Shown here: in pieces, positions 27,511 to 52,740 of the stretch
Position numbering within the stretch: the first letter of the stretch is position 1
How the letters are laid out: each line of letters opens with the position of its first letter
From: Neofusicoccum parvum
Taxonomy: Eukaryota > Ascomycota > Dothideomycetes > Botryosphaeriales > Botryosphaeriaceae
Length of the DNA stretch: 64,000 nucleotides
Reading direction: 5' to 3'
NCBI GenBank assembly: GCA_020912385.1
Contig: CP087207.1
Span: 868,001-932,000, forward strand
Notes under the pieces: generated by a model
Databases searched by the model: none
What the model saw: the letters and a program-made list of their open reading frames with translations, nothing else
Told to the model about the DNA's origin: nothing
Program-made: the position numbers and the translations under genes

Positions 27511-27582
27511 GCCCCTTTAGCTCAGTGGTAGAGCGCGACACTAGTAATGTCGAGGCCATCGGTTCGACTCCGATAGGGGGCA
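27511..27582 (+). tRNA. tRNA-Thr (anticodon AGT)
   Basis: A complete cloverleaf: acceptor GCCCCTT pairs with AGGGGGC (one G-T pair), D arm with AGCTCAGTGGTAGAGC, anticodon stem CGACA/TGTCG with loop CTAGTAA, T arm ATCGG-TTCGACT-CCGAT, discriminator A at 27582. No intron. Internal A and B boxes are normal, and the first T-run is at 27628-27632. Confidence 0.95.
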
Positions 27583-28352
27583 GGACACAGCGCCTGCTTC
27601 AGCTGGTGCATCCAGCACTGGCCTACCTTTTTGGCGCTGCGCGGTGCGTGGTGGACGGAGCTTTGACGTTTTGCCTTGAGGCCAGATCGCACGGCCGATG
27701 TGGGGCTGGAAGCAGGGCGGGAGCCAGGGCGGCCCGAGCGGGGGAGAGCAGGTAGGCGGGACGGGAGCGGTTGGCGGTGGATGATGGGTTGATGGTGGGT
27801 TGGGTCAGTTTGGCCTCGGGGTGCGGGTTCTGCAACGGTTCTTCCCTTTGCGCGCCTGGGGGCTCGGAGGAGGGCGGTGATGCGGGACGGAGGCTGGAGA
27901 GATGGAGGACGTTTGTGCTGCGGGAACGGCTTGAGCTGCTGCACGCACGACGCAGCAGAGAAAAAAAAGTTGCAGGGATGCGGGGGGTAGAAAGGCCGCT
28001 GCGGCGCCGAGACACACGTTCCACTCGACGACCCGGGACACACAAAGAAAAACGAACGCTTCAACGTCGGTGAAAGGCAGAGAGTGGAAAAGAGAGAACG
28101 GGTGGTTCGAAACTCATTGCATGCACCGCGGAGGAATGCTGTCTTCGTCAGTGCTCCCTCTCGCTGATATTGCTCCAACGATGCAACGCCAGGGTTCCGC
28201 ATCCTGGCAGCCGGAAAAGGAAGGCAACCACACATATACGCACAAATCAAGCAACTTTCCAGCCGGTGCCGGTCGTTCTCCCGGTCGAGGCAAAAAATCC
28301 TCCAGGGCTTCTCGAACTGAGGGAGGAATGGAGAACAAGAATGCAAAAATGC
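27583..28352. other. Intergenic region between the two tRNA genes
   Basis: The long open frames on the minus strand (27522-28346) lack motifs and overlap the tRNA. I regard the region as non-coding. Confidence 0.4.
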
Positions 28353-28357
28353 AAAAA
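28353..28357 (-). terminator. RNA polymerase III terminator of tRNA-iMet
   Basis: Five T residues on the minus strand, 12 nt past the discriminator base. A second T-run follows at about 28345-28349. Confidence 0.7.
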
Positions 28358-28368
28358 TATAAGCCCAT

Positions 28369-28498
28369 TAGCTGCGAATGGTTTCGATCCATTGTCCTCC
28401 GGGTTATGAGCCCGGCGCTGTGAAGGTCGTTAGTACACTGGACATTACTGAATGTGAACAGTAGCAATGACTTACCGCTTCCGCTGCGCCACGCAGCT
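28369..28498 (-). tRNA. Initiator tRNA-Met (CAT) with a spliceosomal-type intron
   Basis: Exons 28498-28476 and 28417-28369 join to a perfect eukaryotic initiator tRNA. It has an A1-T72 pair in acceptor AGCTGCG/CGCAGCT, an anticodon stem with three G-C pairs (CCGGG CTCATAA CCCGG), a T loop ATCGAAA (A54 and A60), and discriminator A. The 58-nt insert 28475-28418 falls between positions 24 and 25, in the 3' strand of the D stem, not at the canonical 37/38 site. It starts GTAAGT, carries a perfect TACTAAC 12 nt before its end and finishes TTCACAG. Removing it exactly at GT..AG restores the D stem GCGC/GCGC. It contains no T4 run that would stop polymerase III. The A box is intact in exon 1 and the B box (GGATCGAAACC) in exon 2. 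Confidence 0.9.
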
Positions 28499-28799
28499 TT
28501 TTATAGTGACTTGGAAGTGCAATTGGCGCATTTCCTTTATGATGCGTGCCCATTGTGCGATGCGAAGGCAGGAATGGAGACTTGGCGAAAGTGAGAGCGA
28601 AGAAGACTACACATCGTACATTTTTTTACTCTGACGAAACAACATGACCGAAACAGGATCGACTGAAGAAAGATGATACAAACGCTTCTTCGCAGCGCCG
28701 GTCCGATGCTGCAAACTCCACGCTTGCCGACGAAGATAGTAGGGATATGAGTACCTCTGCAACACCGGAAAGAGACGTCACCACCTCACGTATTATGAA
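28499..28799. other. Spacer between tRNA-iMet and CRY-DASH
   Basis: 301 bp holding the 5' flank of the tRNA and the 3' flank of the cryptochrome gene. No other feature is seen. Confidence 0.4.
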
Positions 28800-30846
28800 T
28801 TACGCATCCTGCGAGGGCTGTCCGTCCTCCGACTGCCCCTGCTTCGCGGCCCTGTCCATGTCTCCCATCCGTCTTGGCCTCCCACCACCTCTCCCCCTTC
28901 CTCTAAACCCTCTTCCACCACGACCGCTGCCCCTCCTGTTATCCCCTCCGGCACCGCCGCCACCGCCACCCTTGTTCCCCACGGCGAACGGGATCCTCAC
29001 CAGCGGCCTCTCGACCCACTCGACGCCCTTCAAGTTCAGCCTCTCCTTCTCCTTCTCGGGCAGCCTCCACGCCTGGAACAAGCCCATCAGCATCTCCTCG
29101 CCCTTGCGGCCGCCGCCCTGCGCGCCGTCGACGTCGACGTCGCGCAGCTCCTCGACCCAGGTCTTGATGTAGGCGCCGCCCCTGTCGTAGTCGAGGGCCT
29201 GCTTGACGGGGTTGAACCTGCGGCCCTGGCGGGGGTCGTTGCCGACGCCGGCGACGTACTGCCAGTTGCCCCAGTTGTTGCTGAGGTCGTGGTCGACGAG
29301 CGCGCACTCGTACCACTCGGCGCCCACGCGCCAGTCGATGCCCAGGTGCGACGCCAGGAAGCTCGCCACGTTCTGCCGCGCCCGGTTCGACGTGTACCCC
29401 GTCAGGAACAGCTCGCGCTGCGACGCGTCGATCAGCCCGACCCCGGTGCGCCCCGCCCGGAACCGCTCGACCGCCTGCCGCGTCTTCGCCGGGTCGTCCC
29501 CGGCCCCGCCGCTGCGGTCCAGGTATCGCCACTTCTTCTTGGTGGCCCCCTCGGTGCTGCCGCCGCTCTCTGCTGCCGCGGCTGCAGCCACTGGCTCGTC
29601 CGAGCGGAAGCCGTCGACGTGGAAGAGCCGGGGCCCGAACTTGCGCGTGCAGAGGCGCATGTAGTCGCGCCAGAGGAGCTCGAAGCGGACGGCTGCGGTG
29701 CCGGTGCTCTCGCCTTTGCCGAACCCCGGCGCGGCTTTCCACGAGTCTGGAACGGTCTGGCTTCCGTCCTCGTATGCTACCAGTGAGCTGTGGATTTGGC
29801 GGGCGGTTATGCAACCGAGAGCGAGCCAGGAAGATATCTTCGTGCTGTAGTCTTCGCCGAGAAGTCCGTTGCGTGTGTCCTTGTAGTTCGCCATGGAACC
29901 TGACGAAATAAGATGCGATACTCGATCCTGGGCGGCAGATTCGCCTCCAGAGAACGGGTGCGCCGAAGTCGCCCCTGACGGCCACTTTGGCGGAGTTTCT
30001 AAATCCAAGGCTGGATCCAGAGGTTTGTTAAGGCAGTCGATCATTGATGAAAGAGACTCTGGTGGGGCAAAAGGACTCGCTTGTGGCGGTATTGAGGAGG
30101 CGGAAGGCAGTGGTGGTAGGGACTTCGGCGCAGGCACTGTCGCTCGCGGTTGAGACCGGAGGGGCTCCAGAGATTTACGGAAGGTGGTGTAGACGTCGGG
30201 GAGATCCTTGATGTTGGTGAAAGGTAGATCACGGCTGATGTGGATGGGTGGTTAGCGAAGGGCAGGTGCAGTCCTCGAATTCGACTTACTCGTCGACAAA
30301 ATACTTCTCGTCGGTCCAGAGCTTGAACTCGACCCCACTGGCCTCGGCTGCCTTGCGGGCATCGCGTTGCTCTCTCTTCTCTTCCACGCCTTCTTCCGCC
30401 GTCATCCAGATGGCTGCCACGGTGCCTCTCTCCTGGCTCCTAGCATCGCCACTTGCTGCGCCGCCATGACTCCCGTACCATGAAAGCATGTGCTGCAACA
30501 CATCTCCTACCATTCCAATCCGGATGACGAGATCGCTACCGATCTTGCCCAGAGACTCCTTCAAGTCCCACACGCTCTCGGCAGTGAACTTTGCCCTGTG
30601 AGGGCCGCATCTCCAAAAGCCAGCGACCTGGCTGCGAGCTTCCGGGTACGGGCTCTTGGCGTCATCTTTCAAGAATCCAGAGACCTCGATTTGGTTCGCG
30701 GAAAGGACGTATACGGGCAGAACATGGGTAAACTGTGAAGAGCCGGAGGCGGCCTGCTGTGTGAGTTGATGGAAAATCGGATTGTCTGCGACGCGGAGGT
30801 CTCGCCGGAGCAGGTAGATCAGCACTCGCGGTGCTGCGGACGACAT
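28800..30846 (-). CDS. CRY-DASH cryptochrome
   Basis: Two exons, 30846-30290 and 30234-28800, with a 55-nt intron (GTAAGT..GCTAACC..TCAG), encode 663 aa from the ATG of MSSAAPRVLIYLLRRDLRV. The N-terminal photolyase alpha/beta domain (WTDEKYFVDEDRDLPFTNIKDLPDVY across the junction, not a single exon) is typical of the DASH group. The FAD-binding helical domain includes GCITARQIHSSL, FELLWRDYMRL, DASQRELFLTGYTSNRARQ and HDLSNNWGNWQYVAGVGNDPR. The last 60 residues are Gly/Arg-rich (several RGG/RGR repeats), a natural RNA- or nucleic-acid-binding tail. CRY-DASH proteins bind FAD and a folate antenna, repair cyclobutane dimers in single-stranded DNA and may act as blue-light sensors. Confidence 0.92.
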
Positions 30847-49766: not shown

Positions 49767-50190
49767 GGTCGTGGTGGAGCGGTTCTAAACGAGGTGGCGG
49801 TGGTTTGTGGGAGGCGCCGAGAGCGCTGCGCGGAGGGTGTGGGTTGTGGAGCGGATGGAGGAGTTTTCGCGGGCGCAGGTCGGAGGTGTGTGGTAGTGCG
49901 AGAAGCTCGTCGGTGAGGATGCTGTAGGGCCGCGACGAAGTAATTGGTAGTCACAGCGGTGAAGGAGGTTGGTTGAGTGTGTGTGAAGTGTTTTTGTCGA
50001 GGTTCGGTCGGGGAGCTTTGGAGCTGGAGCGTCGGCGGCCGCAATGACTTCACTTTTTCACGTGCTCGCGCGAATCCCTGTCGCGCGCAAGCTCAAGGAA
50101 ATTTCCATGCTACGCCCGTCAGCTCCTCCCCCGCACCAACCATTCCGCACCGCACCCTTCCTCCGCATCCCACCGGCGCCGGATCCAACC
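49767..50190. promoter_or_regulatory. Bidirectional promoter, WBP11 / POP1
   Basis: 424 bp between the preferred divergent start codons. An in-frame upstream ATG for POP1 lies at 50044. Confidence 0.45.
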
Positions 50191-52740
50191 ATGGCGGAGA
50201 AGGGTAAGCAGCCCGCGTCGAAACAACAACAGAACCAGAACCGCAAGCGCGCAAAGTCGCGCGACGCCCGCGCCATTGCGGCACAGAGCACCGGCACCGC
50301 TTTCAAGAATGGCGAGGTCAACGTCGACGCGTTCGTCACCGCGCGAGAGTATGAGATAAAGGCGCTCGAGGATGGCATGAACAAGGCGCGCAAGGGCCTC
50401 ACCACACGCGCTTTCCAGGGCGTTCCGCGGGAGCTCAGGCGCAGGACGGCGAGCCACAATGTCAAGCGAGTGCCGCAGCGGCTGCGCAAGCGCGCGGCGA
50501 GGGAGATGGCCGAAGACAATACACCGACGGTGACGGCGAGGAGGAGGAGACCAAATGCGCATATGCGGTTACGGCTGGAGACGGCAGAAAAGCTGAAGAA
50601 AGTCACCGCGAAGGCCAAGGCTAGGAAGGCTAAGAAAGAGGGCAAGGCGAATGGGGACAGCAAGGCAGATGGCGATATGAAGGTCACCGTGACACCTGCC
50701 GAGGGAGATGCCGTGCAAAGCGACGCGATCAAGACTCGGAAACCGCGCGTCAAGACCTCGAAGCTGAAGAATCCGCCCACTCCGCCTGTCAAGTTCCGTA
50801 AGCGCCAGCTGAACAAGCAATGGCTTCCCACACATATGTTCCACACAAAACGCGCCCACTTGACACCCCCTTCGGAACCACTGTGGCGATTTGCGATACC
50901 TCTGGCACCGACAATGAAGTGCTACCGGTCGACACACAGAGCGAGTACTGCGAGGGGCGCTGTGGCATGGGACATGAGTTATATGTCGACAATTGGCCTG
51001 CAAGGATCAGAGGAGCATATTCAGAAGCTCCTAAGGGACTTTGGCGTCGACCATTGGGGAAAGAAAGGCCAAAAGTGGAGAGATGGAACAAGGACGTGGG
51101 AGGGTTGGCTGTTCGAGAAGGATGGATGGCCCGAGAAGGCCATTGCACCGGTCACAATAATTTGGTGTGCAGAGCCAAAGACTGAAGATGTGGAGATGAA
51201 GGACGATGCTACTGAAAGTGCATCTACCAAAAAGAAACATAAGAGGAAGGTCTTGATACGGATACATCCCTCGGCTTTCAAGGAATTTTGGGACGCTATT
51301 CACAAGCACAAGCCACCAGTCACCGTCGAAGACCTCCGTTGGGAGATTGGCAGCATCGAGATAACCGGCCCTGGAGCAACTGAGGCACTACGCGGCGTCC
51401 TCGACCCTGTCATGTCAGAAGGGGGTGACGATAGTCCTAGTGGCATATGGAACACTCTAGCACCCGTCACGAACCTGGGAACACTGCCAGCCAATCCAGT
51501 GCTAGGATTCAACATCGCTGACCCAAGACTCCACCATCCGCCACGCACTGTTAATCTCCCTACAGACAAGGCTTCGCAAACCCGCTTGGTGAACGTCCTC
51601 GCAAGCTGGCCTCCGGATAGAACACAGGGACCACCTGGTCTGTTCAACCTTAACGAGCGTCTTGCTGCCGCGCGTGCTCTACCCAGCCAGAAGTCGATCA
51701 ACCGTCGAAAGACGGCGGCGACGCCAGGGTCGTATCCTGAACCCGTACCAAATGACCCCACAATCCCAGTTCTCCTCTTCGCAACTCGCAGCGCTGGCCC
51801 TGGCACTGGAACATGGACACTTCTCCTGCCGTGGAAATGTGTTTCTCCAGTCTGGAGCTCGTTGATGTACTACCCACTGTCCACCGGGGCAAATGTGCGC
51901 TTCGGTGGATTGAATCAGAAGAGACAGCTGGCATTCGAGGCTGGCATTCCTTTCTTTCCAGCTGATTATTCGGCAACCAAGGCAGGGCAAGAGTGGGATC
52001 TGCATGAGAGCGAGCAGCGGAAAGCGCAGTGGGAGAGAAGACCAAAAGGGAAGAGGGTTGAGTGGGATAGCCTGGTCTTGGCAGAAGGACGGAAAGGTGA
52101 AGTGGGTAAAGGCTGGGCCTGTGACTGGGATGAGCTCCTTGAGGGCGATCAAGTTCCATCCGAACCTAAGCCTACGTTCTACCAGCTTCCCCATTCTCTC
52201 GCCGAAGAAGCCACTGCCTCACGCAAGACCGACGAAATCCCCAACGCTCAGTCTGCCTTGGCGAACGTCCGTCTTTCGCTCGTCGCGCGCGGCGACCCCA
52301 AAGACTGCGCTCGTATCTACCGCCTACCCAGCACCGATCCCTCCCTCCGCGAAAGATGGCTCTACCTCCTTCCCGATCCTCACTCAAAGTCCAACAAAAG
52401 GAAGAGGGCCGCACGGCTGCCCCAAAAGCCGCCGCCGTCAGCACCAGAGCATGTGCAACAAGCCTACCTCGCGGCTAGCTTGCTCGATGCCGATGCCAAG
52501 ACTACCCAGGCGGGTGAGAAGGATTACCCGCCGGTCCCTGGAAAGGAGGACCTGATCGGTTTTGTAACGGCAGGCAACTTCAATCTCGGTGAGGGACAGC
52601 CAACCGGAGTTGGAAATGTGGTGGTGAAGAAATTGGTGGAAGGGATGAAGAGCGAGAAGAAGGGCGTGGAAAGGTTGTGCATTGTGAGGAATGCGGGGGA
52701 GACGGTGGGGAGGTTAGCTAGGTGGGAGATTGCGGGATGA
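50191..52740 (+). CDS. POP1: Ribonuclease P/MRP subunit Pop1
   Basis: Intronless, 849 aa from the ATG at 50191 (CAACCATGG context; MAEKGKQPASK). An in-frame ATG at 50044 would add 49 residues. The POP1 N-terminal domain is seen in VNVDAFVTAREYEIKALEDG, TRAFQGVPRELRRRTASHNVKRVP (basic, RNA-binding) and the segment LNKQWLPTHMFHTKRAHL. The POPLD domain is in LLLPWKCVSPVWSSLMYYPL and VRFGGLNQKRQLAFEAGIPFFPADY, and the C-terminal part includes LIGFVTAGNFNLGEGQPTGVG. Pop1 is the largest protein of nuclear RNase P and RNase MRP, which mature tRNA 5' ends and pre-rRNA. Confidence 0.92.
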   Translation: MAEKGKQPASKQQQNQNRKRAKSRDARAIAAQSTGTAFKNGEVNVDAFVTAREYEIKALEDGMNKARKGLTTRAFQGVPRELRRRTASHNVKRVPQRLRKRAAREMAEDNTPTVTARRRRPNAHMRLRLETAEKLKKVTAKAKARKAKKEGKANGDSKADGDMKVTVTPAEGDAVQSDAIKTRKPRVKTSKLKNPPTPPVKFRKRQLNKQWLPTHMFHTKRAHLTPPSEPLWRFAIPLAPTMKCYRSTHRASTARGAVAWDMSYMSTIGLQGSEEHIQKLLRDFGVDHWGKKGQKWRDGTRTWEGWLFEKDGWPEKAIAPVTIIWCAEPKTEDVEMKDDATESASTKKKHKRKVLIRIHPSAFKEFWDAIHKHKPPVTVEDLRWEIGSIEITGPGATEALRGVLDPVMSEGGDDSPSGIWNTLAPVTNLGTLPANPVLGFNIADPRLHHPPRTVNLPTDKASQTRLVNVLASWPPDRTQGPPGLFNLNERLAAARALPSQKSINRRKTAATPGSYPEPVPNDPTIPVLLFATRSAGPGTGTWTLLLPWKCVSPVWSSLMYYPLSTGANVRFGGLNQKRQLAFEAGIPFFPADYSATKAGQEWDLHESEQRKAQWERRPKGKRVEWDSLVLAEGRKGEVGKGWACDWDELLEGDQVPSEPKPTFYQLPHSLAEEATASRKTDEIPNAQSALANVRLSLVARGDPKDCARIYRLPSTDPSLRERWLYLLPDPHSKSNKRKRAARLPQKPPPSAPEHVQQAYLAASLLDADAKTTQAGEKDYPPVPGKEDLIGFVTAGNFNLGEGQPTGVGNVVVKKLVEGMKSEKKGVERLCIVRNAGETVGRLARWEIAG

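Follow-up and report, generated by a model that had tools for sequence, protein, structure and literature searches.

Probable spliceosomal introns in the D and T arms of tRNA genes of Neofusicoccum parvum

Canonical nuclear tRNA introns are located at position 37/38 and are removed by the Sen endonuclease. The stretch of 64,000 nucleotides from Neofusicoccum parvum analyzed here (hereafter the window, C2:868001-932000) carries an initiator tRNA-Met (iMet) gene interrupted in the D arm by a sequence resembling an mRNA intron, which raises the questions of whether this insert is a spliceosomal intron, whether the gene is functional, and whether it is an isolated case. We addressed these questions by reading the locus and by searching the genome (44 Mb in 18 contigs, designated by C numbers, label G000) for similar genes.

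Anatomy of the interrupted initiator tRNA gene

The preliminary description held that the exact removal of 58 nt would restore a flawless initiator tRNA. The joined exons of the gene indeed comprise 72 nt and fold into a full cloverleaf with 21 of 21 stem pairs (acceptor 7/7, D 4/4, anticodon 5/5, and T 5/5). The hallmarks of initiator tRNA-Met are A1-T72, three G-C pairs in the anticodon stem and A54/A60, and all of these are present, together with the anticodon CAT. Direct reading also confirmed the splice signals reported, i.e. GTAAGT, TACTAAC with its branch A 12 nt before the intron end, and CAG (Table 1). The arrangement GTAAGY...YTRAY...AG did not arise in any of 200,000 shuffles of the insert, and eight further tRNA genes of this genome have the same architecture; the GTAAGT...TACTAAC...CAG architecture is therefore not due to chance. 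The insert is most likely a spliceosomal intron that would be cut from a polymerase III precursor to yield an ordinary iMet, and the eight other genes carry inserts of similar construction.

Table 1. Location of the features of the window initiator gene (window positions) and of the other tRNA genes discussed (contig positions)
Feature	Position	Strand	Remarks
Initiator tRNA-Met gene	28498-28369	minus	sequence read; insert after nt 24
Exon 1, nt 1-24	28476..28498	minus	sequence; identical in C13 copy
A box TGGCGCAGCGG, intact	28491-28481	minus	within exon 1
58-nt mRNA-type intron, tRNA nt 24/25	28418..28475	minus	sequence; empty site in C1 initiator gene
5' splice site GTAAGT	28470..28475	minus	sequence read
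Branch motif TACTAAC	28429..28435	minus	sequence read; branch A 28430
3' splice site CAG	28418..28420	minus	sequence read
Exon 2, nt 25-73	28369..28417	minus	sequence; pattern matches in three genes
Anticodon CAT	28408-28406	minus	within exon 2
B box GGATCGAAACC	28390-28380	minus	within exon 2
Two TTTTT runs, likely polymerase III terminator	28357-28353, 28349-28345 (28345..28357)	minus	sequence read
TATAAAA, putative upstream element	28499..28505	minus	directly upstream of mature 5' end
iMet C13	1416328-1416455		exons identical to window copy; 56-nt insert, same site, GTAAGC...CACTAAC...TAG
iMet C1	1470928-1470999		uninterrupted; three stem pairs differ, each changed on both sides
Trp C4 (C4b)	about 1075717-1075861		D-arm insert 24/25; ordinary 37/38 intron
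Leu-CAG C5	2705772-2705936		D-arm insert 25/26; ordinary 37/38 intron
Leu-CAG C17	499762-499927		D-arm insert 25/26; ordinary 37/38 intron
Leu-CAG C16	about 428943-429105		D-arm insert 25/26; ordinary 37/38 intron
Val-CAC C14 (L073)	about 589795-590005		three introns: D-arm 24/25, ordinary 37/38, T-arm 60/61
Val-CAC C16	about 1187407-1187565		D-arm insert 24/25; ordinary 37/38 intron
Ile-TAT C14	about 567562-567751		T-arm insert 60/61; ordinary 37/38 intron

Initiator tRNA genes of the genome

Three initiator genes, on C2 (the window gene), C13 and C1, were found with a pattern covering the anticodon loop and the T loop (up to 3 mismatches), and a pattern based on exon 1 returned the same three genes and a match to the 5' half on C5. 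This last sequence (C5:2996319-2996341, L015) corresponds to an initiator 5' half with 2 mismatches, and a tRNA 3' half is absent nearby. The C2 and C13 genes have identical exons over 72 nt, and the interiors of their introns show a likeness of 0.56, against a shuffled mean of 0.55. Two findings support the reading of the locus as a real initiator tRNA with a spliceosomal-type intron in the D stem: the C13 gene combines identical exons with another GT-AG insert at this very position, and seven further tRNA genes carry such inserts. An insert in every iMet copy had been named beforehand as one possible line of support; two of the three genes found have one, and the C1 gene does not. It follows that initiation need not depend wholly on splicing.

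Ten inserts in nine tRNA genes

The first further example, a Leu-CAG gene with a like insert, was encountered while reading other tRNA genes. Genome pattern searches followed by the reading of flanks gave a total of ten mRNA-type inserts in nine tRNA genes for five isoacceptors (two iMet, one Trp, three Leu-CAG, two Val-CAC and one Ile-TAT). The D arm holds eight of the inserts, at 24/25 or 25/26, and the T arm the other two, at 60/61; none is at 37/38. All ten are 52-61 nt long, begin with GTAAG[T/C], terminate in YAG and contain YTRAY, the A of which lies 10-13 nt before the intron end. The search key was GTAAG alone, so that base 6, the branch motif and YAG were outside the selection. A branch-like motif at a similar place was obtained in 1.5-5.5% of shuffles per intron, in a test with the A set at 9-12 nt from the end, which covers nine of the ten introns. 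In the Ile C14 insert, a nearer AG precedes the AG required by the tRNA. The patterns were narrow, leaving other positions, splice sites and T-loop sequences outside them, and nine genes is therefore a lower bound.

The empty site was seen in five uninterrupted paralogues: iMet C1, Trp C4a (~0.7 kb from the interrupted Trp C4b), Leu-CAA C5 (C5:2703055), Ile C12 and Val C16, the last as a reference for the T-arm insert of Val C14 only. Intron boundaries were taken from these empty sites instead of from ARAGORN scores. In trial excisions scored with ARAGORN, the GT-AG cut tied for the top score in the two iMet genes and Trp, a one-base shift giving the same product, and tied at the top with several others in Leu C5 and C17. 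For Val C16 it scored 110.8, against 112.1 for the best cut; for Leu C16 it fell outside the best eight, which are spurious Phe calls, and the trial with Val C14 and its three introns gave no result.

The internal promoter and the terminator were also inspected. The A box is whole in all eight genes with a D-arm insert, whereas both T-arm inserts interrupt the B box at its end and replace its last bases, which may carry a cost. A run of at least five T begins within 20 nt of the 3' end in all nine genes. The absence of TTTT from the introns was not significant (P about 0.5).

Search yields and controls

GTAAG after a standard A box gave 19 matches, against 38 for the reversed pattern, and reading assigned eight of the 19 to tRNA genes and 11 to other sequences. 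The T-arm pattern gave 42 matches, against 44 reversed; 25 of these belong to one repeat, and all 17 others were examined, two being tRNA genes. Since the raw counts do not exceed those of the reversed-pattern controls, the case rests on the full tRNA bodies around the matches. The 25 matches of the repeat, which contains GGTTCGATGTGTAAG, are mostly within tens of kb of contig ends, and it may be a subtelomeric family; the one copy of the 25 that was examined was not a tRNA.

With GTATG after the A box there were 28 matches (26 reversed), and no B-box-like sequence matched within 300 nt of any of them, in a test without a positive control. GTGAG gave 35 matches (39 reversed), of which four were examined in their flanks and revealed no tRNA, the other 31 being judged from the matched letters. 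A boxes one base longer yielded 15 matches (34 reversed), including two already obtained with the standard A box. Four of the remainder were examined: one is a Lys-TTT tRNA (L110) in which GTAAG is simply part of the anticodon stem, and the other three are not tRNAs. In a general tRNA search, 63 of 860 candidates were scored, with 49 matches, of which 47 were read. The iMet, Leu, Trp/iMet and Val D-arm patterns had no match in viral contigs, and the iMet D-arm pattern had none in contigs of prokaryote genomes; a single bacterial match to the Trp/iMet D-arm pattern was not a tRNA.

Conservation of the exons

It had also been suggested that the window gene might be silent. The interrupted genes would then be dead copies, with uninterrupted copies supplying the cell. 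An uninterrupted iMet gene on C1 and the uninterrupted Trp gene close to the interrupted one fit this reading, and one copy without an mRNA-type insert was found for each of iMet, Trp and Ile-TAT, so the interrupted copies of these could be dispensable. Ectopic D/T-arm tRNA introns are described in Cyanidioschyzon and nucleomorphs, and such insertions in other eukaryotes are supposed to be pseudogenes, according to two reviews (PMC4090602, PMC3978253).

Full splice signals in 10 of 10 inserts speak against dead copies, and the exons point the same way. In the Val pair, as in the iMet pair, identical exons surround unrelated introns: the D-arm intron interiors of Val C14 and C16 have a likeness of 0.57, against a shuffled mean of 0.55, and Val C14 carries one extra intron, yet its exons are those of Val C16. 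Gene conversion among tRNA genes, said to equalise introns too (PMC4090602), should have made these introns alike, but the iMet and Val intron interiors are unrelated. Moreover, Leu C16 differs from C5 and C17 in three acceptor pairs, all three of them compensatory, and all three genes are interrupted. The changed pairs are also compensatory between the iMet paralogues (3/3) and between Trp C4b and C4a (1/1). Stem pairs altered on both sides are expected if the introns are removed and the spliced tRNA is made. Of the four pairs that changed between Ile C14 and Ile C12, one is compensatory, one is one-sided and two are mismatched in one gene, and Ile C14 is the weakest of the nine cases.

The Leu introns are more alike (C5/C17 0.72, with a shuffled maximum of 0.76; C17/C16 0.68, with a maximum of 0.68), and the downstream flanks of C5 and C17 have a likeness of 0.78, against a shuffled maximum of 0.67; the identical exons of these two genes may therefore reflect a recent duplication. 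BLAST searches of the genome found no uninterrupted Leu-CAG or Val-CAC gene to take the place of the interrupted ones, although a diverged copy could escape, as the same searches missed Leu C16 and Val C14. Given the identical exons over diverged introns and the paired stem changes, we consider it unlikely, at a low probability, that the window gene and its counterparts are dead copies.

Removal of the inserts

If the interrupted genes are active, their inserts could instead be removed by the tRNA splicing endonuclease at sites other than 37/38, a route put forward for Cyanidioschyzon and nucleomorphs. Ectopic D/T-arm introns, several per gene, do occur in archaea, a red alga and nucleomorphs, as reported in PMC4090602 and PMC3978253, and two of our ten inserts reach a four-pair central helix when a two-base shift is allowed. 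These shifted helices pair no more than shuffles do, and ordinary introns reach such a helix in 14 of 29 cases with the shift. At the exact junction the four-pair helix is seen in none of the ten inserts, a weak test that separates poorly, as only one of the 29 ordinary introns has it; with the exact bulge-helix-bulge (BHB) missing in 28 of 29 ordinary introns, this comparison adds little.

The GT, branch and AG signals, which an endonuclease does not need, are present in all ten inserts. ARAGORN reported 32 other introns in this genome, three of which are misread interrupted Leu genes and were left out; among the remaining 29, none has GT..AG ends within a three-base shift, and the signals are thus special to the D/T-arm inserts. 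The positions of the inserts lie off the ordinary pathway, and spliceosomal introns have precedents in U6 and U3 (see below). On these grounds the spliceosome is the better candidate than the tRNA endonuclease, whose action on these inserts we regard as very improbable. The least probable reading of all takes the window gene for a tRNA-like segment within the 3' region of an upstream photolyase-type mRNA, and the intron for part of that polymerase II transcript: a photolyase-type ORF does end ~300 nt upstream on the same strand, but the intron boundaries match cloverleaf restoration in nine genes at nine places, and each of the nine is followed by a T-run.

The anatomy, recurrence and boundaries of the inserts and the conservation of the exons were read from the sequence, and from these we infer transcription, the use of the spliceosome and the order of the steps. 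In the pathway that we favor, polymerase III, directed by the internal A and B boxes, would transcribe the gene as far as the T-run. U1 and U2 would bind the precursor at GTAAGT and at the YTRAY branch site, and the intron would be released as a lariat, after which the D (or T) arm would be able to fold. The tRNA endonuclease, which requires a folded tRNA body, would next cut the ordinary 37/38 intron from the precursors of the Trp, Leu, Val and Ile tRNAs.

Relationship to known introns

Fungal U6 and U3 genes carry mRNA-type introns, and a 2017 article (PMC5832005) named no other small structured RNA as being frequently interrupted by an intron to current knowledge. As described there, the U6 and U3 introns resemble our inserts in being short and of the GT-AG type, in having a branch site (RCTRAY in U6/U3), in their small structured host RNAs and in being identified as spliceosomal by sequence, and U3 also has paralogues with and without an intron in one genome, and clustered positions. 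The inserts described here differ in residing in tRNA genes, which have internal promoters and are served by a second splicing system particular to them. None of the three U6 genes found in the genome (C16:1152130, C5:766338 and C2:2956570) has an intron, the full model being matched within 99-107 nt.

Like canonical tRNA introns, the inserts have nuclear tRNA hosts, and the Trp, Leu-CAG, Val-CAC and Ile genes carry both kinds, but they differ in their sites (24/25, 25/26 and 60/61) and in their GT-branch-AG signals. They share D/T-arm positions and the occurrence of several introns per gene with those of Cyanidioschyzon, nucleomorphs and Crenarchaeota; the latter (PMC4090602, PMC3978253) rely on BHB-type junctions or, where unexplained, measure 3-24 nt, as opposed to 52-61 nt with spliceosomal signals here. 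Among the matches listed in searches of open-licence literature, no tRNA gene was described as carrying a spliceosomal intron, a provisional absence. The intron type is known, and the tRNA as a class of host RNA is provisionally unreported, as far as this literature goes.

The cell likely makes part of its tRNA supply via the mRNA-splicing machinery. We also think it likely that spliceosomal introns invaded the tRNA genes of this member of the Botryosphaeriales at two hot spots (the ends of the D arm and of the T loop), with the spliceosome thereby becoming an enzyme of tRNA maturation. It would then be required by two of the three initiator genes and by all the Leu-CAG and Val-CAC genes found, some precursors would be cut by the tRNA endonuclease only after the spliceosome had acted, and translation would depend directly on mRNA-splicing capacity. 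If spliced as predicted, these genes would represent a further way to make a tRNA, would link splicing directly to translation capacity, and would make it possible to ask, in a natural setting, whether polymerase III transcripts generally gain access to the spliceosome. They would also expose a blind spot in tRNA annotation, as only Leu C5 among the nine interrupted genes reaches the gathering score of the Rfam tRNA model. The expectation that tRNA finders would miss the window gene proved correct: ARAGORN and Rfam at the gathering threshold report only a Thr tRNA in the window.

Sequence context of the window gene

This Thr-AGT tRNA gene (27511-27582, plus strand) is uninterrupted and on the strand opposite to that of the initiator gene, ~0.8 kb away. 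The ORF upstream of the initiator gene (28800-30137, minus strand) contains a photolyase FAD-binding domain. The window also encodes POP1 (50044-52740, plus strand), a subunit of the tRNA-processing enzyme RNase P/MRP, probably by coincidence.

The mRNA introns nearby had been said to share the signals of the tRNA insert, and in the small sample of four SDH1 introns this applies to two (63 nt, GTAAGT...ACTAAT...CAG, and 68 nt, GTGGGT...CTGAT...CAG, both passing the motif filter) and not to the other two. The strict pattern GTAAGT..YTAAC..YAG occurs five times in the window, one occurrence being the tRNA insert, against zero or one in each of 20 simulated sequences. Among the best 120 of 7999 matches, the SDH1 fragment encoded in the window shares 85-90% identity with the named proteins from Macrophomina, Botryosphaeria, Lasiodiplodia and Diplodia, with the other named matches reaching 76%.
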